Of a stretch of 40,821 nt of DNA, positions 1,811 to 15,304 are shown one piece after another. The translations under genes were made by a program, and so were the position numbers. The notes below the pieces were generated by a model. That model did no database searches. It saw nothing but the letters and a program-made list of their open reading frames with translations, and was not told the origin of the DNA. Source of the DNA: a virus; IMG/VR virus record IMGVR_UViG_3300031787_000290, positions 1-40,821 of that record. One strand, given 5' to 3'. Every line of letters begins with the position of its first letter. The stretch's first letter is position 1.

Positions 1811-2041
1811 TCATACTTGTTGAGTTTTTAAGTTTGGATAAAATTGATTGAAGATCGTGTTGTACTCTTGCTCGGTGATTACCACAAAGCCATCCCACCC
1901 GTCATACATTTTAAGCAAATCTTCGGGTGTGTTTTTTTCGGTATCGTAACAAATTACGTCACCTGTAAAGTGGTCAGTCAATTCGGCGATGTTTGGGTAA
2001 ATTTCCACGGCCTGTTCGCCAACTAGAAAAAAGTGTTTCAT
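1811..2041 (-). CDS. Hypothetical acidic protein, 76 aa
   Basis: The product begins MKHFFLVGEQAVEIYP and is acidic and aromatic, with a YDGWDGFVVITEQEYNTIF segment near the end. No membrane segment or known domain is visible. The gene starts 21 bases after the 3' end of the second tRNA-like element, so processing of that element would shape its mRNA 5' end. The 130-base gap to the next gene holds that gene's promoter. Small acidic early phage proteins often bind host proteins, but nothing here proves such a role. Confidence 0.55.
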   Translation of the reverse strand: MKHFFLVGEQAVEIYPNIAELTDHFTGDVICYDTEKNTPEDLLKMYDGWDGFVVITEQEYNTIFNQFYPNLKTQQV

Positions 2042-2062
2042 GCTGTTGTGTATTAAGTTTAG

Positions 2063-2139
2063 AACAACGGGGAGACTCGAACTCCCTGCGAATGTGGTAA
2101 CCTCAGTTAGTCACACTTGCCGCACCTTGCGTCGTTGCT
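2063..2139 (-). tRNA. tRNA-like element 2 (77 nt, irregular anticodon arm)
   Basis: Read leftward, a 7-bp acceptor stem (AGCAACG with CGTTGTT, one G-U) encloses a 4-bp D-stem with a GG-containing loop. There is also a canonical T-arm, stem GGGAG/CTCCC with loop TTCGAGT. The total length of 77 nt is right for a tRNA. The middle arm does not form a 5-bp stem with a 7-base loop. It folds instead as TAAC/GTTA with a 4-base loop extended by TGTG/CACA, so no anticodon can be assigned. The 3' end (TTGTTCTA) matches element 1. A decayed tRNA or tRNA mimic is likelier than a functional one. Confidence 0.4.
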
Positions 2140-2512
2140 GTGTTGTATTGCACGTTTGCTTCATTGAGCAGTTAAGACGCTACTCGTTAACTGCTCCCCA
2201 CATTACTGCGGGACTTGTATTGCGCTGTATTGCGCTTTTTTTCGGGCCATTGCGGTACTCCGTTTGTTACTCCCGTGCTATTGGCACGGCTCAGGCAAGT
2301 TTAACCTGTAACTCCTAACCTTGTTACTGACAGGTTGCCGAATGTTGTCGGCCATTTGCGAGCTTGCTCTCGTCGCGTCGTTACCTTCGCGCTCACCCTC
2401 TTTTCTGTCAGGAGAGGGAATCAGAACCTGTTGCTGTCTTTCAATTCTAACTGATATCTCATCAGGTATACTTGCGGGTGACTTAAGCACTCCGTTGTTC
2501 CGTTGAACGGGG
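2140..2512 (-). ncRNA. Hairpin-rich leader, candidate structured RNA
   Basis: Downstream of the promoter at 2513-2540 the leftward transcript holds several perfect hairpins: GAGCAGTTAA/TTAACTGCTC (10 bp, 2166-2196), GCCGA/TCGGC (2337-2352) and CCCTCT/AGAGGG near 2398-2420. It then runs into the tRNA-like element at 2063-2139. The only sizeable reading frame is a 70-residue GTG-start frame at 2278-2490 (MLKSPASIPDEIS...), very polar and of no recognisable family. The density of inverted repeats argues for a structured RNA or a long regulatory leader. A small protein in addition cannot be excluded. Confidence 0.4.
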
Positions 2513-2540
2513 CAAATATATGTTTAAGTGAAAGTTTCAA
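2513..2540 (-). promoter_or_regulatory. Leftward promoter for the structured leader
   Basis: Minus-strand TTG (2538-2540), 17 bases, then TATATTTG (2513-2520). The spacer is two bases short of the Bacteroidetes optimum, but the -7 element is perfect and TTGAAACTT matches the promoter at 1704-1733. It fires away from the gene-free block into the structured leader and tRNA-like element. Confidence 0.55.
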
Positions 2541-2583
2541 TGCAAATTTGAATGATCGTTTAAAACACCTGTATTATCAAGGC

Positions 2584-2607
2584 TTTCAGAAAATGTCATT
2601 TCTGAAA
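2584..2607. repeat. 9-bp inverted repeat
   Basis: TTTCAGAAA and TTTCTGAAA separated by 6 bases, close to the leftward promoter at 2513-2540. No U-tract follows on either strand. The right arm overlaps the first copy of the operator-like motif at 2603-2616, so a protein-binding site is the likeliest reading. Confidence 0.5.
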
Positions 2608-2780
2608 CCCGCGTCAGACGTGGCCGAAACCACATTCAAAATATTTTTTCAATTATTTTCAGTTTTGTAGGAATGACGCGGGTTGTAGAGCGAAAAAAAA
2701 ATGAAAAAAAGTTTGACTTTTCTTGGAAGCCGCGTAAACATTGACTATCTTTGTAAGCAACAGCATTGAAACCCGCATCA
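2603..2780. promoter_or_regulatory. Three operator-like motif copies around an orphan promoter
   Basis: The motif TGAAACCCGCGTCA occurs at 2603-2616. An inverted copy TGACGCGGGTT lies at 2674-2684, and a third direct copy with one change (TGAAACCCGCATCA) lies at 2767-2780. They bracket the rightward promoter at 2723-2753, one copy sitting just after the predicted RNA start. Copies 1 and 2 together form a 10-bp perfect inverted repeat (AACCCGCGTC). This is the geometry of a repressor or activator operator set. The protein that reads it is not identified. Confidence 0.5.
2723..2753 (+). promoter_or_regulatory. Orphan rightward promoter
   Basis: TTG (2723-2725), a 20-base spacer and TATCTTTG (2746-2753) match the Bacteroidetes consensus well. 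No convincing gene follows for over a kilobase. The first frame is a 21-codon one near 2790 (MQQIAESVKMAHFRPLGHV). It may make a regulatory or priming RNA that runs toward the palindrome array. Confidence 0.6.
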
Positions 2781-3426
2781 ATCAAGCAATGCAGCAAATC
2801 GCTGAATCGGTAAAAATGGCTCATTTCAGGCCGTTAGGTCACGTTCTCAGGTGATCCGGACACAGGGTAAAACGGGGCTAAAATCAGGTTAAAAAATGGG
2901 TGCATTTAAGGTCATCCGAAAATGGTCCGGAAAGGCCAAGGCCCGAGCGCGGATACACTGCACGCATAGCTCTCCCCTCTCCTCCTACTACACAAACACA
3001 AAAGAATAATAGTGTATTGCACAAGGTCTCCTCGTGTGCGCACGCGTTTGGGCTCTCCAATCTTGTTGTGGCCCAAACTAAAAATTTCCCACGCCCCACG
3101 CGGCTTTCAGCACAACTGCATGAAAAAACACGAAAAAAGGCATGATCCGGCAGCCCTTAAAACAGCCCCTCATTATTGTATTCTCAGAGGTTTTGGCCTC
3201 AAAGTTAAAGCACTGATAATCAGGATCAGTTTATCTTCCTGCTCCGGCTGAAGACAATTTTATCGTTGGATTCCTATTATTAGACCTGTTTCTGGGCTGC
3301 TTTCGCCATGCCGCGCAGCGCTCCCCAGTTTATATGACCAGCGCCCAGTGTGCGCGATGAGCGGACGATTGCGCCTAGTTTATGCGGGCCAGTTCATATG
3401 ATCCAGATTGTGGTCTGACGTGATCA
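2781..3426. other. Gene-free stretch before the palindrome array
   Basis: I find no supportable gene here. The 71- to 81-residue open frames on both strands are low-complexity and overlap one another. There is a single outlying partial copy of the array motif (TGCACGCATAG, 2959-2969). Further right are three related motifs, CAGTTTATATGACC (3326), TAGTTTATGCGGGCC (3376) and CAGTTCATATGATCC (3390). Base composition is uneven, with purine/pyrimidine runs. Confidence 0.5.
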
Positions 3427-3530
3427 TATGCACGCATAGGATTGTAAGCTATGCACGCATAACACTGCACACTATGCACGCATAGCATCGCACCTTATGC
3501 ACGCATAACACCATGTCCTATGCATGCATA
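3427..3530. repeat. Five near-palindromic 12-mers at exact 23-bp period
   Basis: TATGCACGCATA occurs at 3427-3438, 3450-3461, 3473-3484 and 3496-3507. The fifth copy, TATGCATGCATA (3519-3530), is a perfect palindrome. Starts are exactly 23 bp apart, about two helical turns, while the four 11-bp spacers differ in sequence. The arms TATGC/GCATA are conserved in every copy. Such phased arrays bind a protein cooperatively on one face of the DNA: replication iterons, partition sites or multi-operator control regions. There is no gene in the block. The array lies about 430 bases upstream of the early rightward gene cluster. Confidence 0.85.
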
Positions 3531-3590
3531 ATACCGCGCCCAGTCCATGGGATATGGCCGCCGGTTTGTGGCTGATTATCAACGCTTTAT

Positions 3591-3623
3591 ACATAGCTGA
3601 CTACCAAGTAGTTACCACTATGT
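3591..3623. repeat. Nested inverted repeat (cruciform-type)
   Basis: An inner hairpin ACTAC-CAA-GTAGT lies within outer arms ACATAG and CTATGT. The structure follows the 23-bp array by 60 bases. It is not followed by a T-run, so a terminator is unlikely. An origin or protein-binding function in the same control block is more plausible. Confidence 0.5.
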
Positions 3624-3795
3624 GCCGCTCCTTATGCCTCCTGCTTCCCCGCTCTATATGGTTGACAGCCAATGCGTTACCTGTTGGGGGATAATTAGCT
3701 GTGGATCAGCGACTTAGTGCACCCACCCCATTTGCTAATTCGACTTCGGGAGCGGCAGGCGGCAGTGGTGGTGGGGGGGGTGACCCCCACCGCAG
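3624..3795. other. Gene-free stretch with inverted repeats
   Basis: No gene is supported. It contains a 7-bp inverted repeat AATTAGC/GCTAATT (3693-3740). It also has a G-rich hairpin formed by GGTGGGGG and CCCCCACC around 3770-3792, including a run of eight G. Confidence 0.4.
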
Positions 3796-3880
3796 TTGGT
3801 TTACGTTTTTCAATAAAATCGCTTCACTACGCTTGGTTTACGTTTTTTCAATAAAATCCCTCCGCCACAGTTGGTTTATG
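3796..3880. repeat. Three-copy 37-38 bp tandem repeat
   Basis: Units start with TTGGTTTACG at 3796 and 3833 and TTGGTTTATG at 3871. The first two continue with CGTTTTTCAATAAAATC (one extra T in the second), and the third diverges after about 10 bases. They lie just upstream of the promoter at 3913-3943, so they could be activator sites or the trace of local duplication. Confidence 0.7.
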
Positions 3881-3912: not shown

Positions 3913-3943
3913 TTTGTTGTAATTGATTGGTTGTGTATATTTG
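3913..3943 (+). promoter_or_regulatory. Consensus promoter of the basic-protein cluster
   Basis: TTTG (3913-3916), exactly 19 bases, TATATTTG (3936-3943): a perfect match to the Bacteroidetes housekeeping consensus. The first start codon is at 3957, so the leader is only a few bases to about 10 bases, A-rich and without Shine-Dalgarno. Confidence 0.8.
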
Positions 3944-3956
3944 TAAAAAAAAAGTT

Positions 3957-4229
3957 ATGAGACTTGTAAAGAATGGGGATCCGAAGAATCGCAAGGTTTC
4001 TGAGGGTGCGAACTCGGGGATGTCTTGCAGCAAGGATGGCTGTGGGGCGGTTAAGACGAATTCAAGTGTTGGGACCAACCGTCAGAACGTTGGGGGTGCT
4101 AAGGGGCTCTCCAGCAAGCCTCAGTACGGATCAAAGACCATCACCAAGAAGCAGGCTGAAAAGAGGGCTGTGAAGATGGCTGAATACCGGGCGAAGGCTC
4201 AACCGAAGTCAAATCGATCTAAATACTAA
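3957..4229 (+). CDS. Small basic phage protein, 90 aa
   Basis: First gene of the rightward basic cluster. I choose ATG 3957 (MRLVKNGDPKNRKVSEG) because a TTG-start extension would begin inside the -7 element. The first half is rich in Gly, Ser and Asn with two Cys (MSCSKDGCG). The second half is a Lys/Arg-rich helix (TKKQAEKRAVKMAEYRAKAQ). A highly basic charge suggests nucleic-acid binding or packaging with DNA. No family is recognised. It lies 6 bases before the next gene. Confidence 0.7.
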   Translation: MRLVKNGDPKNRKVSEGANSGMSCSKDGCGAVKTNSSVGTNRQNVGGAKGLSSKPQYGSKTITKKQAEKRAVKMAEYRAKAQPKSNRSKY

Positions 4230-4235
4230 TAAACA

Positions 4236-4514
4236 ATGAAAAAGGTAAACAGGGGTAACCCAGAAAAACGAGCTGCCAAGGTGGAGGCTCGTGCCGAAAA
4301 GAAGATGACCAAGGCTAAATCGTCTTGGAACAAGGCTGAGGCCACGAGAAAGGCTGAGCCTCCAAAAAACAAGACGGTAACCTACGACGACTTCGGGGGC
4401 ATGGCTCATCAGGCCAAGACCAACAGGTTGTACGCAAGGTCTGCGAGACAGGCTGAGAAGGCCCGGGATCTCAAAACCAAGGCCGGTATCATTCGTTCCG
4501 GAGGTAAGAAATAA
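4236..4514 (+). CDS. Small basic phage protein, 92 aa
   Basis: Begins MKKVNRGNPEKRAAKVEARA and is dominated by Lys, Arg, Ala and Glu in long helix-like runs. A short hydrophobic-aromatic patch VTYDDFGGMAHQA lies near residues 48-60, and the C-terminus is IIRSGGKK. It is part of a seven-gene run of basic proteins with short gaps. This composition recalls nucleoid-type or virion-internal proteins, but no named family matches by eye. Confidence 0.7.
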   Translation: MKKVNRGNPEKRAAKVEARAEKKMTKAKSSWNKAEATRKAEPPKNKTVTYDDFGGMAHQAKTNRLYARSARQAEKARDLKTKAGIIRSGGKK

Positions 4515-4533
4515 TCTTTTATCCTTATACGAC

Positions 4534-4875
4534 ATGGCAAAATCATCAAAACCAAATCCGCCTAAAAAGAAGGCGAACACTCAGGGTCCTTTGAAATCAG
4601 GACCAAGAATGGCTCCGGGAAGCGGGGTTAGAAAGCTTGATAAACAAAGCCCCGGAGGTTCTAAGCCAAGAACAGGATCTCAATTTGTCCCCAAAAGCAT
4701 GCCCAAAAACGGACCGTCAAAGCCGAAACCGAAGCCTAAAAGCGCAGGTCAACAACTCAGGGAGGGCAACGAGGTTGTTCGCCAGACAGCAAAGAGGCTC
4801 TACAATGAGTTTGGAGACAAGGTCATGGGAGCCCGTGAGTGGATCCGAAAGGATCTCGGCCTGCCCAAGAAGTAA
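4534..4875 (+). CDS. Basic Pro/Lys-rich protein, 113 aa
   Basis: The first ~65 residues are disordered Pro/Lys/Ser/Gly sequence (PSKPKPKPKSAGQQ). The last ~45 form a predicted helical segment (LREGNEVVRQTAKRLYNEFG, then ARDWI-like AREWIRKDLGLP). The arrangement of a basic tail plus small helical domain fits a DNA-associated protein. The stop at 4873-4875 is followed in the same frame by the next gene's reading frame, so a stop readthrough would fuse the two. Confidence 0.7.
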   Translation: MAKSSKPNPPKKKANTQGPLKSGPRMAPGSGVRKLDKQSPGGSKPRTGSQFVPKSMPKNGPSKPKPKPKSAGQQLREGNEVVRQTAKRLYNEFGDKVMGAREWIRKDLGLPKK

Positions 4876-4889
4876 GATCCTTCAGAGAT

Positions 4890-4925
4890 ATGGAAATCAA
4901 AAAGCCCCGATTGTAGTCGGGGTTT
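4890..4925. terminator. Hairpin overlapping an 8-codon frame
   Basis: A 9-bp stem, 4902-4910 with 4917-4925 (one G-U), loop TTGTAG. On the minus strand it is followed by TTTTTGATTT, so it would act as a leftward terminator. Rightward it lacks a U-tract. A mini-frame ATG 4890 to TAG 4914 (MEIKKPRL) ends in the loop. It sits in the 5' region of the next basic gene and may control its translation. Confidence 0.5.
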
Positions 4926-4932
4926 CAAGGCC

Positions 4933-5073
4933 GTGCAGAGCAAGATTGCTAAGAAGCAGGGCATCAGTAAGGAGAGTTCCGGGGCTATTTTGGCCTCTGC
5001 TGCTCGTAAGGCGATTCCTGCTGCTAAGAAGGCCAACCCGAAGTTGAAGAACGTTAAAATGAAGAAGAAGTAA
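4933..5073 (+). CDS. Small basic protein with uncertain start
   Basis: The frame is open from 4876, but no ATG exists before the conserved-looking segment. The first usable initiator is GTG 4933 (46 residues, MQSKIAKKQGISKESSGAIL...). The codons just upstream encode GFKA, which together with VQSKIAKKQGIS reads like the N-terminus of a recurrent phage family of small basic proteins ending in KKANPKLKNVK. Either translation starts at an unusual codon, a +1 shift from the 8-codon frame at 4890 supplies the start, or the N-terminus has been replaced by the hairpin. The stop overlaps the next ATG (TAATG). Confidence 0.6.
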   Translation: MQSKIAKKQGISKESSGAILASAARKAIPAAKKANPKLKNVKMKKK

Positions 5074-5192
5074 TGGCAAAGTCACTAGGAAACGGACTAA
5101 AAACAGTATTCGGGAAGCGCAAGGAGGGTAAAGCCTCCAAGCGCAAATCCCCGAAGGATAAGCACGTCAAATCTTCACGAGGACAGGGATGA
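5073..5192 (+). CDS. Tiny basic protein, 39 aa
   Basis: Starts on the ATG overlapping the previous stop and ends with ATGA overlapping the next gene, so it is locked in a translationally coupled chain. The product (MAKSLGNGLKTVFGKRKEGK..., ending KSSRGQG) is almost half Lys, Arg, Ser and Gly. A short amphipathic helix LGNGLKTVFGK at the start may contact membrane or nucleic acid. Its size keeps the call modest, but the coupling on both sides supports a real gene. Confidence 0.6.
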   Translation: MAKSLGNGLKTVFGKRKEGKASKRKSPKDKHVKSSRGQG

Positions 5193-5569
5193 ATAAGCCT
5201 AAACCAAAAGTAAAACAAGGAATGGTGGTTAGCCAGCGTCGCAAGACCGCTCAAGCTATTCGCGATCCTAAAAAGCCCATGCCCGGAAGTAATTCAACTC
5301 ACTTGATGCAGCATGGGGAATCGGGGAAAAAAAAGTACAAGTACGACGTTAACCCGACTATTTTCCCTAATAAAGATGGTTCATGGACTGATTACAGCAA
5401 TGATCCAAAGGCTGCGTATGCTGAAGCAAAAAAGAGAGGCGAGACGTTTGGTTTTAAGCGTGAGAAACGAGCAGAGAAGTTTGCTGCTGGGTCATGGAAA
5501 AAGGGCCAGGATCGCAAGGAGGCTATGAAGAACTATCGTCAAGATAAACGTCAAAACAAAAAGAAATAA
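5189..5569 (+). CDS. Basic protein with phage NPTIFPNKDGSW module, 126 aa
   Basis: Residues 1-45 are basic and disordered. Residues ~48-100 carry KKYKYDVNPTIFPNKDGSW, TDYSNDPKAAYAEAKKRGE and EKFAAGSWK. This pattern (a 'PT[IL]FPN...W.D.S..P..A...A..RGE' core ending in 'F..GSWK') recurs in internal or tail-tip virion proteins and muramidase-linked proteins of many phages. Here it stands alone with a basic tail (REAMKNYRQDKRQNKKK). It starts on an ATGA overlap with the 39-residue gene. Virion association is inference. Confidence 0.65.
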   Translation: MNKPKPKVKQGMVVSQRRKTAQAIRDPKKPMPGSNSTHLMQHGESGKKKYKYDVNPTIFPNKDGSWTDYSNDPKAAYAEAKKRGETFGFKREKRAEKFAAGSWKKGQDRKEAMKNYRQDKRQNKKK

Positions 5570-5832
5570 TGGCAAAATCACCAGCATGGCAGAGGTCTGA
5601 GGGCAAGTCAAAAACAGGAGGCTTGAATGCCAAGGGCCGTGCATCGTACAAGCGTGAAACCGGAGGCACATTGAAGCCCCCAGTCTCTGCTAAGCAGGCC
5701 AAGAGGTCTCCAAAGGCCGCTGCAAGGCGTAAGTCATTTTGCGCTAGAATGAGCGGGATGGCTGGTCCGATGAAGAAGCCTAACGGGGAGCCGACAAGGA
5801 AGGCCCTGGCCCTAAGGAAGTGGGACTGCTAG
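5569..5832 (+). CDS. Small conserved phage protein with KSFCARM motif, 87 aa
   Basis: Begins MAKSPAWQRSEGKSKTGGLN and carries GRASYKRETGGTLKPPV, RRKSFCARMSGM and PNGEPTRKALALRKWDC. These blocks are typical of a small basic protein family found in phages of many hosts (a DUF-type family; I do not give its number). Two conserved cysteines (SFCARM and the final WDC) could bind a metal or form a disulfide. It starts overlapping the previous stop and its last codons form part of the terminator hairpin. Confidence 0.8.
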   Translation: MAKSPAWQRSEGKSKTGGLNAKGRASYKRETGGTLKPPVSAKQAKRSPKAAARRKSFCARMSGMAGPMKKPNGEPTRKALALRKWDC

Positions 5833-12637: not shown

Positions 12638-14578
12638 TTATTCCCAGGCTTCCTTGTACCCGTTTGGGTGCGCTATGTCTTCGTTCCATTCTTTTGCTTC
12701 TTTTGAATCCGTCCAGTTTCTGTTAGGACTTACTGCGCTTGGTGTTTCTTGCTTAATTTCAATCTGGACAGCCCTCCCGTCTATTGCCTGTTGAAGGTAG
12801 TCTACACCGTCAAAGGTAAACCTCCTCGTGTTCCTCTGTAGTTGAAATTCAAACGACCCCTTTAGTCCAACTATCTTCTGTCTTCTGATCTTCTTACTGT
12901 GAAACTCGCACACGGGGCTGTCTGGGGCTGTCTGAGCGAATGGACGGTGGTATATGATGATGTTATCCGCCTTGTTGTTCCACATCGCACCATCTGCAAG
13001 GTCAAACACCTCTGGACAAGGATAATTCCCATCCTCTCCTTTTCTCATTTTGTGCGGGTGAACCACGATGTCGAAGTACACGTTGTTCTTCCTCGCAAAC
13101 CGTGTGCAGTCAGAAAGGAAAGTTTCGAGGTACTTGTCGCTGCGTCCCGCACCCTTTGAGTAATCGTTTGCCATTTGGTTGAACGGATCAATAACCACCC
13201 TGTCAACTCCGTGCTTGATGATCAGGCTCAGGAACACCTCCTTCACGTAATCTGGTGTGGGGGCTACGTTCTTCGGGTACACCATGAAAATATGGTCTCC
13301 AATCATCTTGTACACCTTCATGTACGCATCGTATGATGGGCGTGTTGGGTTACTTGGTGTGCAGTCTCTCCCAAAGTAAATCTCTACAAGGTCGTGGTAG
13401 AACTGTTCGGCAGGCAGTTCCTCAGGAGTAAAGATGGCAACCCTCTCCCCAAACCTAACCATACGCATTATCATCTCCCACTTCATGAATGATGACTTTC
13501 CGTAGTTTCCTATTCCGGAAACAATTGTTAATTCGCCTTTAACTCTTTTGAAGTGCCTATCGAGCAATGGGACGCCGACGGGCATTGCTGCTTGATAACC
13601 CTTGAGGTAAATTTCCCCAGCCCTATCCATCACCTCCTCGGCATAGATTACGTCCTCCTTAGACATTTCATCGAGGTCCTCTTCGGTTAGCTCAATCTTA
13701 ACCTCCTTGTGGCTACTCTTTGTAACTAACTGATCCTTAGTGAACTCGGCAGTATTCCACTGGCTCATGTTCGCCCTGTACGCACTACGGATGGCCTGGC
13801 GACACTCCTTCTGACTGAAGCTTGCATCAGGAACGACGTAGGTCATCATCATGCTGTAGCACGTCTCCTCGAGCATCCCGAACCTACAGCAGCTTGCGGC
13901 CAGCTTAAAAACGAAGTGATTCCTTTCCCCCTCACGGAACGCATCCCCCTTGGATGTCATCCACGTCAGCAGGTTGTTGAATATCTTGTCGTCATCGTTA
14001 ATCGTTTCAGTGGTTGTCTGTTGGGGCAACCTTCTATCGGCCTTTTTTACAGGCAGTTTGTTGTACGTCTCGGCGTTCTCGTTGTACCAAAGATTGGGAT
14101 CATACGACTCAAAGCAGAGTCGGGACAGGTTCTTTCCGGTCTTGTCAATGTCTGGAAAGTCATTCATTAAGGCCTCAAAGTGCTCTTTGTGCATGGTTTT
14201 CCATTCAATTTGGACGAGCGCCTTCAATCCCTTGCCAGATGGGGAAGTCCAAACAGCTGTTATGTACCCTAAAGAGCACAGTTCTCTGCGTTTTTCGGCC
14301 ATGTCTGACACGTTATCGAAGTCCAAAACAATGTACCCGGAATGTTCGACAAGTTCAGAGTCCTTTCGCTTTGAGAACGTGCCGCTGAAACAAACGGCAG
14401 GGAGTTTCTTTTTTAACTCGTCCGCCTCCTTCTTGGTTTTTGCTTGCCTCGCCTTGTTAACAAGCTCCTTTGACTTCCCATTCCTAATTCGTTCAAGTGC
14501 GCCCAACACACTAATTGTGTGTCCCTGCAGGTCGTTGAAGTCTTGGTAGATTGATACTTTACCATCTATTGGTCTCAT
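12638..14578 (-). CDS. Primase-helicase (BT4734-like primase plus DnaB-type helicase), 646 aa
   Basis: The N-terminal ~180 residues contain GYIVLDFDNV and SPSGKGLKALVQIE, blocks of the BT4734/VirE-like primase-polymerase (AEP-type) family typical of Bacteroidetes mobile elements. A helical linker follows (residues ~200-310). The C-terminal half is a RecA-type hexameric helicase: GELTIVSGIGNYGKSSF carries the Walker A (G-x4-GKS), and VDRVVIDPFNQM the Walker B aspartate. VHPHKMRKGEDGNYP and NIIIYHRP match later DnaB-type motifs. The fused enzyme would unwind and prime at the fork. It overlaps the initiator gene by 20 bases, indicating co-expression. No DNA polymerase is visible nearby. Confidence 0.85.
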   Translation of the reverse strand: MRPIDGKVSIYQDFNDLQGHTISVLGALERIRNGKSKELVNKARQAKTKKEADELKKKLPAVCFSGTFSKRKDSELVEHSGYIVLDFDNVSDMAEKRRELCSLGYITAVWTSPSGKGLKALVQIEWKTMHKEHFEALMNDFPDIDKTGKNLSRLCFESYDPNLWYNENAETYNKLPVKKADRRLPQQTTTETINDDDKIFNNLLTWMTSKGDAFREGERNHFVFKLAASCCRFGMLEETCYSMMMTYVVPDASFSQKECRQAIRSAYRANMSQWNTAEFTKDQLVTKSSHKEVKIELTEEDLDEMSKEDVIYAEEVMDRAGEIYLKGYQAAMPVGVPLLDRHFKRVKGELTIVSGIGNYGKSSFMKWEMIMRMVRFGERVAIFTPEELPAEQFYHDLVEIYFGRDCTPSNPTRPSYDAYMKVYKMIGDHIFMVYPKNVAPTPDYVKEVFLSLIIKHGVDRVVIDPFNQMANDYSKGAGRSDKYLETFLSDCTRFARKNNVYFDIVVHPHKMRKGEDGNYPCPEVFDLADGAMWNNKADNIIIYHRPFAQTAPDSPVCEFHSKKIRRQKIVGLKGSFEFQLQRNTRRFTFDGVDYLQQAIDGRAVQIEIKQETPSAVSPNRNWTDSKEAKEWNEDIAHPNGYKEAWE

Positions 14579-15266
14579 CTGTAGTAGGTGTTTGTTTTAT
14601 CGTTTGTTTTGTTTGTGTTTCATCCTCCCATCTCCTGTCGCGAAGGTATCGCACAGGATCCTTCCAGTACTTGCGTTCGCGCCCCGATTTGTGGTTCCCC
14701 ATGCACTCCACGGCAAGTATGCGATCTTTTTCATGCAGTTTGTTCCATGCAGCTTCTGCTTGTTTCTTGTCCACTTTCTTGTCGTAAGCCATCCAAAACT
14801 GCTCGAAAGAATACTTATTTTCTTCTTTTACTTTATTCTTTTTATTATGTGAGCATTCCTGAGCAGGGGTATGCTCATTTTTGAGCAGGGGGTATGCAGG
14901 TTTTTGAGCAGGGGTATGCTCAAAAAAATCATCTTCCTCATTTTCAGACACTGGTATCTCGGGGGTAACTGTTCTGCTTAAAATGTCGGCATCTGGATTT
15001 ATAGTTAAACATCTAACCTCAACCTCATTTCTGGTATTGAGTTTCACCATTCTCCCCAAAACACCTTTCTGTTCGAGATCAGCAATTATCCGTCTCACAC
15101 TGTGCTTGGATATCCCAAGGCATTCACCCAGATAATGATTTGAGGCAAAGCAATAGCCCCTGATGTTTGATAAATTCGAAATAACCCCTATAAGGAGTTT
15201 TTCCGTGGATGATAATTCCTTGCTAAGCAACACACTTGCAGGGATAATTGAATATTGATTGTGCAT
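14559..15266 (-). CDS. HTH replication initiator (lambda O-like role), 235 aa
   Basis: I choose ATG 15266 (MHNQYSIIPASVLLSKELS). A GTG at 15296 would start inside a terminator hairpin. Residues ~20-80 form a winged-helix domain (SSTEKLLIGVISNLS, SNHYLGECLGISKHSVRRII, then EQKGVLGRMV) like those of phage replication initiators. A linker (~110-150) is encoded by DNA repeats. The C-terminal domain has FWMAYDKKVDKKQAEAAW and YLRDRRWED, typical of phage replisome-organiser proteins that load the helicase. The primase-helicase follows with overlap. An origin-like repeat set lies within the gene, as in lambda O. Expression is probably governed by the upstream attenuator. Confidence 0.8.
   Translation of the reverse strand: MHNQYSIIPASVLLSKELSSTEKLLIGVISNLSNIRGYCFASNHYLGECLGISKHSVRRIIADLEQKGVLGRMVKLNTRNEVEVRCLTINPDADILSRTVTPEIPVSENEEDDFFEHTPAQKPAYPLLKNEHTPAQECSHNKKNKVKEENKYSFEQFWMAYDKKVDKKQAEAAWNKLHEKDRILAVECMGNHKSGRERKYWKDPVRYLRDRRWEDETQTKQTIKQTPTTDETNRW
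14809..14922 (-). other. Candidate replication origin inside the initiator gene
   Basis: Three repeats of TGAGCAGGGGTATGCTCA type lie at 14860-14877, 14882-14899 (one extra G and a different right end) and 14905-14922, spaced 22 and 23 bp. Next to them (14809-14849) is a 41-bp tract that is about four-fifths A+T. Phased iterons plus an AT-rich unwinding region within an initiator gene is the lambda ori arrangement. The middle copy has an extra base, so it encodes AYPLLKN while the flanking copies encode EHTPAQ: DNA, not peptide, is conserved. Confidence 0.7.
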
Positions 15267-15269
15267 GAT

Positions 15270-15304
15270 AAAATAAAAAAGCCCCGTGTAAGGCACCGGG
15301 GCTT
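15270..15304 (-). terminator. Intrinsic terminator in the initiator leader (attenuator)
   Basis: On the minus strand the 8-bp stem AAGCCCCG/CGGGGCTT (10-base loop) is followed by TTTTTTATTT, ending four bases before the initiator ATG at 15266. A full terminator between promoter and gene implies regulated readthrough. Its loop contains GCCTTAC, complementary to the loop of the upstream hairpin at 15338-15367. Confidence 0.75.

Follow-up and report, generated by a model that had tools for sequence, protein, structure and literature searches.

Five evenly spaced palindromes in a phage genome match a predicted MarR operator of Bacteroidota beta-oxidation genes

Phages reprogramme their hosts with proteins and metabolic genes. 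In operator-repressor titration, an engineered effect, operators on a multicopy plasmid draw a repressor from the chromosome. Sites for host regulators have also been described on phage DNA. The intergenic regions of alphaproteobacterial phages are rich in CtrA-binding sites, which lie preferentially at promoters and have a demonstrated role in phage gene control (PMC9437464, available in part); the available part does not mention titration, decoys or sequestering, and the word "sponge" occurs there twice, each time for an animal named in the reference list. According to the available part of a second paper, the P1 promoter of phage GIL01 is regulated by host LexA through two sites at the promoter, together with a phage cofactor (PMC4551915). 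Apart from these two papers, literature searches on the MarR regulon and on phage decoys or titration gave no direct precedent among the papers listed.

The locus described here is an array of five 12-bp palindromes in a virus record of 40,821 bases, which was analysed at its full length and is called the window. The array would resemble the GIL01 system, as far as the available text describes it, in placing operators of a host repressor on phage DNA. It differs in being promoter-less, whereas GIL01 has two promoter sites and a phage cofactor. It departs from the CtrA phages, as described in the available part, in having no nearby promoter element, in the MarR-type metabolic regulator that its sites suggest, in its hosts, which are probably Bacteroidota, and in being known from sequence alone. 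Host-factor sites in phage intergenic DNA, a feature of the CtrA and LexA systems, are found here by sequence match only, and sites at phage promoters, the other feature, were found at none of 12 clusters. Extra operators are common to the array and to plasmid titration, and the case of the array would be natural and viral. With the putative MarR operator pairs beside fad genes of Bacteroidota, the array shares an identical 12-mer, and its flanks match in part. These pairs mostly lie near a promoter element, 102 of the 119 listed with a spacing of 28-30 bp, whereas the array has five copies at 23 bp and no promoter element.

The array and its genomic setting

The same array was found in three near-identical contigs, among them G002, of 68,495 bp. 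The window starts at position 52,285 of G002, and its later part continues near the beginning of that contig. About 2.9 kb, including the initiator gene, seems to be present at both ends of G002, so this contig probably covers the complete genome. Among the products encoded in the window are a large terminase, a portal protein, a BT4734-like primase/helicase and a replication initiator. The matches of the portal among named phages were Flavobacterium, Cellulophaga and Maribacter phages (21-24% identity for the best listed), and they point to a Bacteroidota host. No known RNA family was matched in the window by Rfam at the gathering threshold, nor did blocks A and B (Table 1) give an Rfam match.

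The five palindromes reported in the earlier note were confirmed at every start, with 23 bp at each of the four steps, in a region free of genes. Four copies are TATGCACGCATA and one is TATGCATGCATA. No further exact TATGCNNGCATA site occurs elsewhere in the 40,821-base window, and two exact sites no more than 60 bp apart appeared in none of 300 order-1 Markov windows. The spacers do vary at the fixed period, with 10 of the 11 spacer columns of the 23-bp unit variable compared with 1 of the 12 core columns (Fisher p = 1e-4). Spacer differences summed over unit pairs were mostly transitions (45, against 14 transversions), so the array looks like an old tandem duplication in which the 12-mer alone was preserved.

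The earlier suggestion that all sites face the same side of the helix did not survive this analysis. With 10.5 bp to a turn, the period of 23 bp makes 2.19 turns, and the sites therefore do not lie on one face; the rotation is about 69 degrees per step and about 274 degrees over four steps. Selection on the spacing is not clear either, as the same site stands in other phages at 15, 21, 23, 28, 32, 33 and 37 bp, a list that omits L022 (35 bp), whose flanks do not match. Two inverted repeat arms of 18 nt (3206-3223 and 3572-3589; 89% complementary) lie on either side of the array, and TGATTATCA-like motifs recur in the corresponding segments of relatives.

Table 1. Features of the window discussed in the text
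Feature	Position	Strand	Remarks
Conserved non-coding block A	2041..2790		Longest alignments 76-81% DNA identity (L191, L193, L194, L196); shorter ones 70-74% in others
TATCTTTG, Bacteroidota -7-like element	2746..2753	+	At the end of block A; points towards the array, about 680 bp away
Variable segment between blocks A and B	2764..3721		Contains the array; other sequence in relatives
Whole array, five 23-bp units	3427..3541		
Operator-like palindrome 1	3427..3438		TATGCACGCATA
Operator-like palindrome 2	3450..3461		17-mer GCTATGCACGCATAACA identical in host sites L096, L239 (both of one genome) and L128
Operator-like palindrome 3	3473..3484		Position of the 12-mer checked exactly
Operator-like palindrome 4	3496..3507		Position of the 12-mer checked exactly
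Operator-like palindrome 5	3519..3530		TATGCATGCATA; 17-bp identity CTATGCATGCATAATAC with host site in L233
Conserved non-coding block B, G-rich	3722..3800		About 73-83% identity
TATATTTG, -7-like element	3936..3943	+	Precedes genes for small basic proteins; 406 bp downstream of the array
Replication initiation protein	14559..15296	-	PHROG 270, HTH_36
23-bp repeats inside initiator gene	14860..14922		Different unit; contain TGAGCA...TGCTCA

The palindrome in Bacteroidota chromosomes and in other phages

Genome contigs were scanned for two copies of TATGCRYGCATA, the core present at all five window sites, within 31 bp, and at least 119 chromosomal stretches were found. Among the pairs listed, a MarR-profile match lay no more than 300 bp away in 108 of 119, and a MarR-profile match or a fad-type protein was near 114 of 119; the profile had been built from the ORFs of these same host loci. 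The five pairs with neither neighbour were L035, L065 (where the site is at a contig end), L101, L121 and L123. Representative neighbours were MarR (PF01047, E 5.5e-11), 3HCDH plus ECH, acyl-CoA dehydrogenase and an AMP-binding ligase. Apart from the predominant spacing of 28-30 bp, 4 of the listed pairs were spaced by 27 bp, 10 by 31-43 bp, and one each by 15, 22 and 23 bp. The 80 titles listed were mostly Flavobacteriales, with some other Bacteroidota. Mis-binning is probable for a few listed records (L044 and L066, where the neighbouring genes have a flavobacterial look), and the Chlamydiae record L035 lacked the operator flanks (P=0.30).

Seven of 11 single-site loci (L233-L237, L239 and L242) also adjoin genes of beta-oxidation type, which were named by reading protein starts as dienoyl-CoA reductase, EtfB, FabH-like synthase, acyl-CoA dehydrogenase or MarR. 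The sites of L238, L240 and L241 are inside ORFs, and that of L243 is beside neighbours given no assignment. The palindrome is likely the operator through which a MarR-type regulator controls fatty-acid beta-oxidation in Bacteroidota, and the host loci are predicted to form a coherent beta-oxidation regulon. The spelled 12-mers were not found in the bacterial literature of open-licence PMC, where the sole match was a nematode paper; an operator for a beta-oxidation MarR regulator of Flavobacteriales is proposed here. The exact pair was present in 6 of 395 sampled Bacteroidota genomes, including the centre chosen for having it, and the reversed-pattern control pair in none of the 395. Seven host genomes contained 2-6 exact sites each, and with so few on the chromosome the five sites of a phage genome could matter.

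The setting of the sites differed between hosts and phages. The Bacteroidota -7 element TAnnTTTG stood no more than 60 bp from 94 of the 119 listed host clusters, compared with 14.7% of random intervals. All 12 phage clusters, or 11 if L022 is set aside, lacked this element within 60 and within 100 bp. The Fisher values of the contrast were 5.8e-8 by cluster and 6e-4 by 5 groups, with L025, L005-L007 and the single-site L010 and L020 left out. Random placement, at the 14.7% background of host loci, also predicts 0 of 12, so the result separates phage from host use and is no proof of a decoy. The window's own array has no TAnnTTTG within 100 bp. The multi-operator region proposed in the earlier note is thus supported as a region of host-type operators, and not as an established control region of the phage's early genes. 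Both -7-like elements of the window (Table 1) sit in stretches conserved in array-less relatives.

Two TATGCNNGCATA sites were present in 21 viral stretches, and two exact RY sites in 15; three of these 15 contigs come from the same virus as the window, and another, L025, nearly duplicates L014. Beyond the window's phage, the sites fell into the groups L008/L016/L023/L024, L012/L013/L014/L025 and L015/L017, plus L019 and L022, as defined by shared flanking sequence and ORF sizes (one protein identity of 74%) and not by a tree. All of these groups except L022 resembled the host operator. Clusters of the same site thus occur in four other, seemingly unrelated phage groups. Control palindromes of like composition were found in 4, 8 and 9 viral contigs, compared with 15 for the TATGC site, and clusters of at least three sites were found in 12 contigs, compared with 3 and 2 for the two of three controls examined. 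These contig counts were rejected as proof of enrichment, because the excess is modest and the controls also form clusters, and the weight is carried by a test of the flanks. One control led to another phage group (L152, L154 and L155) with a cluster of the ATACGTGCGTAT palindrome, at spacings of 21-22 and 42.

In the flank test, the 3+3 bases beside the core, which lie outside the search pattern, were compared with random positions within 700 bp; L025 and L005-L007 (copies of the window's phage) were dropped. The match to the host profile reached P=0.002 in the window, P=0.0018 in L019 and 0 of 5000 draws in each of the L008, L013 and L015 groups, values that are optimistic because the sites of any one phage or group have a common origin. 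L022 (P=0.52) and L035 did not match. Compared with T-A-Y / R-T-A, the window flanks obey the Y..R rule in 9 of 10 cases and match the full flank in part, in units of common descent. The mean flank score was -2.3 in the window versus +1.1 to +1.9 in the other phage groups.

The sites lay between ORFs in the ORF maps of 13 loci, with the exception of L010, where the overlapping 62-aa ORF is probably spurious. Near the operator cluster of two phages there are 519-aa ORFs (L013:8720-10279 and L014:2128-3687); a GroEL-like PHROG was matched by two of the scanned set, probably these ORFs. Capture of a host fad promoter or operon was considered and rejected, since MarR, fad and neighbouring proteins found no counterpart by tblastn in the phage loci tested. 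BLAST with the window segment, the L008 array and the host operator pair found no named phage with the array, the latter two queries matching at E 0.6 or worse, and no plasmid matched; sites as short as 12 bp easily escape BLAST. A tblastn search for hosts yielded no matches or uninformative ones for the L013 and L015 groups. The nearest match of the L016 peptidase was an uncultured phage, followed by Cellulophaga phages.

Relatives of the phage and the variable segment

A metallophosphoesterase search gave 66 loci, and in 33 of the 63 loci L162-L224 one or more of the small genes at 3957-5832 also had a homologue. Among the matches listed, the relatives were largely co-linear, with TerL at 83-85%. 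L162, an identical fragment, stops short of the array, and L163-L224 contained no exact array site. The earlier note had proposed a search of related phages for the motif and its 23-bp phasing, and had staked its claim on the array being kept where synteny is intact. None of the 21 relatives whose sequence extends at least partly into the segment had the array, the outcome that the note had named as a refutation; the set includes near-duplicates and several members that cover only part of the segment. The array is therefore lineage-specific.

Blocks A and B and the promoter near 3936 were kept in many of these 21 relatives, and the stretch between the blocks was variable. It contained two or three exact AGTGTA-N5-TACACT sites in 3 of the 21 (L178, L191 and L195); additional copies were an imperfect one in L178 and one exact and one imperfect in L196. 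Pairs of this palindrome occurred in 22 viral stretches. It was present in 54 of 395 host genomes, compared with about 73, by hand count, for the reversed control, and with no enrichment it was not supported as a host operator. A slot with different short palindromes in different phages fits either a changeable decoy or changeable sites of the phage's own.

Possible roles of the array

The array is probably a set of host-type MarR operators. The five sites may well be operators of the host MarR repressor of beta-oxidation that act as a promoter-less decoy, a reading that we hold tentatively. A decoy is the most likely mode because the array sits away from any recognisable Bacteroidota promoter; alternatively, the array might recruit the host repressor in some other way. 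Entry of the phage DNA, and more so its replication, would add extra operator sites to the cell. By binding the host repressor, these sites would take it away from the small number of operators on the chromosome, and the beta-oxidation genes would be derepressed during infection. The sequence itself shows the sites, their identity with host operators, a partial agreement of the flanks, the missing adjacent TAnnTTTG and the recurrence in several phage groups; to these the reading adds that MarR binds and represses, that the phage's host has the regulator and that titration has an effect.

Several results tell against a decoy. The exact pair occurs in only 6 of the 395 Bacteroidota genomes. The contig counts are weak, as three of the 15 come from the window's virus and the controls reached 4, 8 and 9. 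The window flanks match less well than those of other phages, and shared ancestry makes the P values overstate the match. The absence of promoters at 12 clusters equals the expectation for random placement, and sub-cut-off MarR matches exist in 6 of 22 phage records. Finally, the 21 relatives examined lack the array, and BLAST found it in no cultured phage or plasmid.

That a phage-encoded protein binds the array, whether the 261-aa wHTH protein, one of two DnaA-domain-IV-like proteins or another, with the host match due to convergence or shared motif ancestry, seems unlikely. The wHTH protein (G002:47922-48704) is, like the array, full-length only in this lineage; 2 of 11 records matched at E<=1e-3, and the second match covered just 24 residues. 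It has a sub-cut-off MarR match (6.4e-5), as has the initiator of G002. However, a MarR over the cut-off was found in none of the 22 phage records (12 site-bearing ones plus those of 10 relatives; many records of the other array phages are fragments), and a phage-encoded MarR was rejected. The best of the weaker matches (3.2e-5) was in G406, the record of L010, outside the site-bearing stretch. DnaA_C-like proteins number two in G002 and one each in relatives, which would favour them as binders, but they were present in 10 of 10 relatives tested, which have no exact site in the stretches covered, and in 3 of the 12 records from other phages with arrays. Moreover, DnaA domain IV reads a non-palindromic box. 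The different palindrome pair or cluster in the slot of 3 of the 21 relatives, which is not enriched in host genomes, also agrees with a binder of the phage's own. Such a binder gives no reason for the identity with the host fad operator, flanks included. L148 encodes two paralogous phage proteins (L148:5541-6050 and L148:6576-7085), 50% identical, that resemble DnaA domain IV.

It is also improbable that the host MarR on the array controls phage transcription, by which the phage would sense the fatty-acid state of its host. The same match to the host operator, in core, flanks and MarR/fad neighbourhood, supports this possibility. One conserved -7 element, at 2746, is directed towards the array, and a second one follows the array; control might be exerted, for example, through a block to elongation from the promoter near 2746, or through looping to the promoter near 3936. 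The CtrA sites (PMC9437464) and LexA on GIL01 P1 (PMC4551915) provide precedents, in the parts available. However, the sites of those precedents are at promoters, whereas no TAnnTTTG lies within 100 bp of the 12 phage clusters, and the two -7 elements of the window are in stretches that array-less relatives conserve.

A second replication origin, or a partition (centromere) site of a phage-plasmid, both raised in the earlier note, is very unlikely. The tandem, evenly spaced sites lie in a non-coding block amid conserved non-coding DNA, as would suit either role, and the arrays of the L008 group and L020 adjoin GAAACTGC-type repeats. The 23-bp repeats of a different motif that the note had placed inside the initiator gene do exist (Table 1), and they are more likely the origin than is the array. 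They were kept in L163, L191, L193 and L198, all without the array; L196 has a divergent initiator in which other repeats replace them. Iterons lie in or beside the initiator gene and are conserved with it, whereas the array is 11 kb away. The cumulative GC skew, which also tracks gene direction, turns at the initiator region and not at 3.4 kb. No ParA/ParB family was found by Pfam among 66 G002 ORFs plus 10 submissions (one of them a repeat) and ten window proteins. The absence of the array from 21 of 21 relatives and of any plasmid match at BLAST sensitivity points the same way. A neutral or structural tandem repeat is the least probable reading, for although the spacers resemble drifted copies of one unit and the relatives examined are without it, the near-invariant core beside variable spacers would need selection or biased conversion.

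The titration of a host repressor by promoter-less operators is the reading we prefer. More broadly, it is possible, though rather doubtful, that promoter-less clusters of one host operator arose independently in several unrelated groups of Bacteroidota phages, as a counter-regulator made of DNA only that titrates the fatty-acid repressor and turns on beta-oxidation. A promoter-less array would be a departure from the CtrA and LexA precedents, since these, in the parts available, place host-factor sites at phage promoters. If true, such a decoy would escape gene-based annotation, and phage infection would be linked to host lipid breakdown in Bacteroidota.
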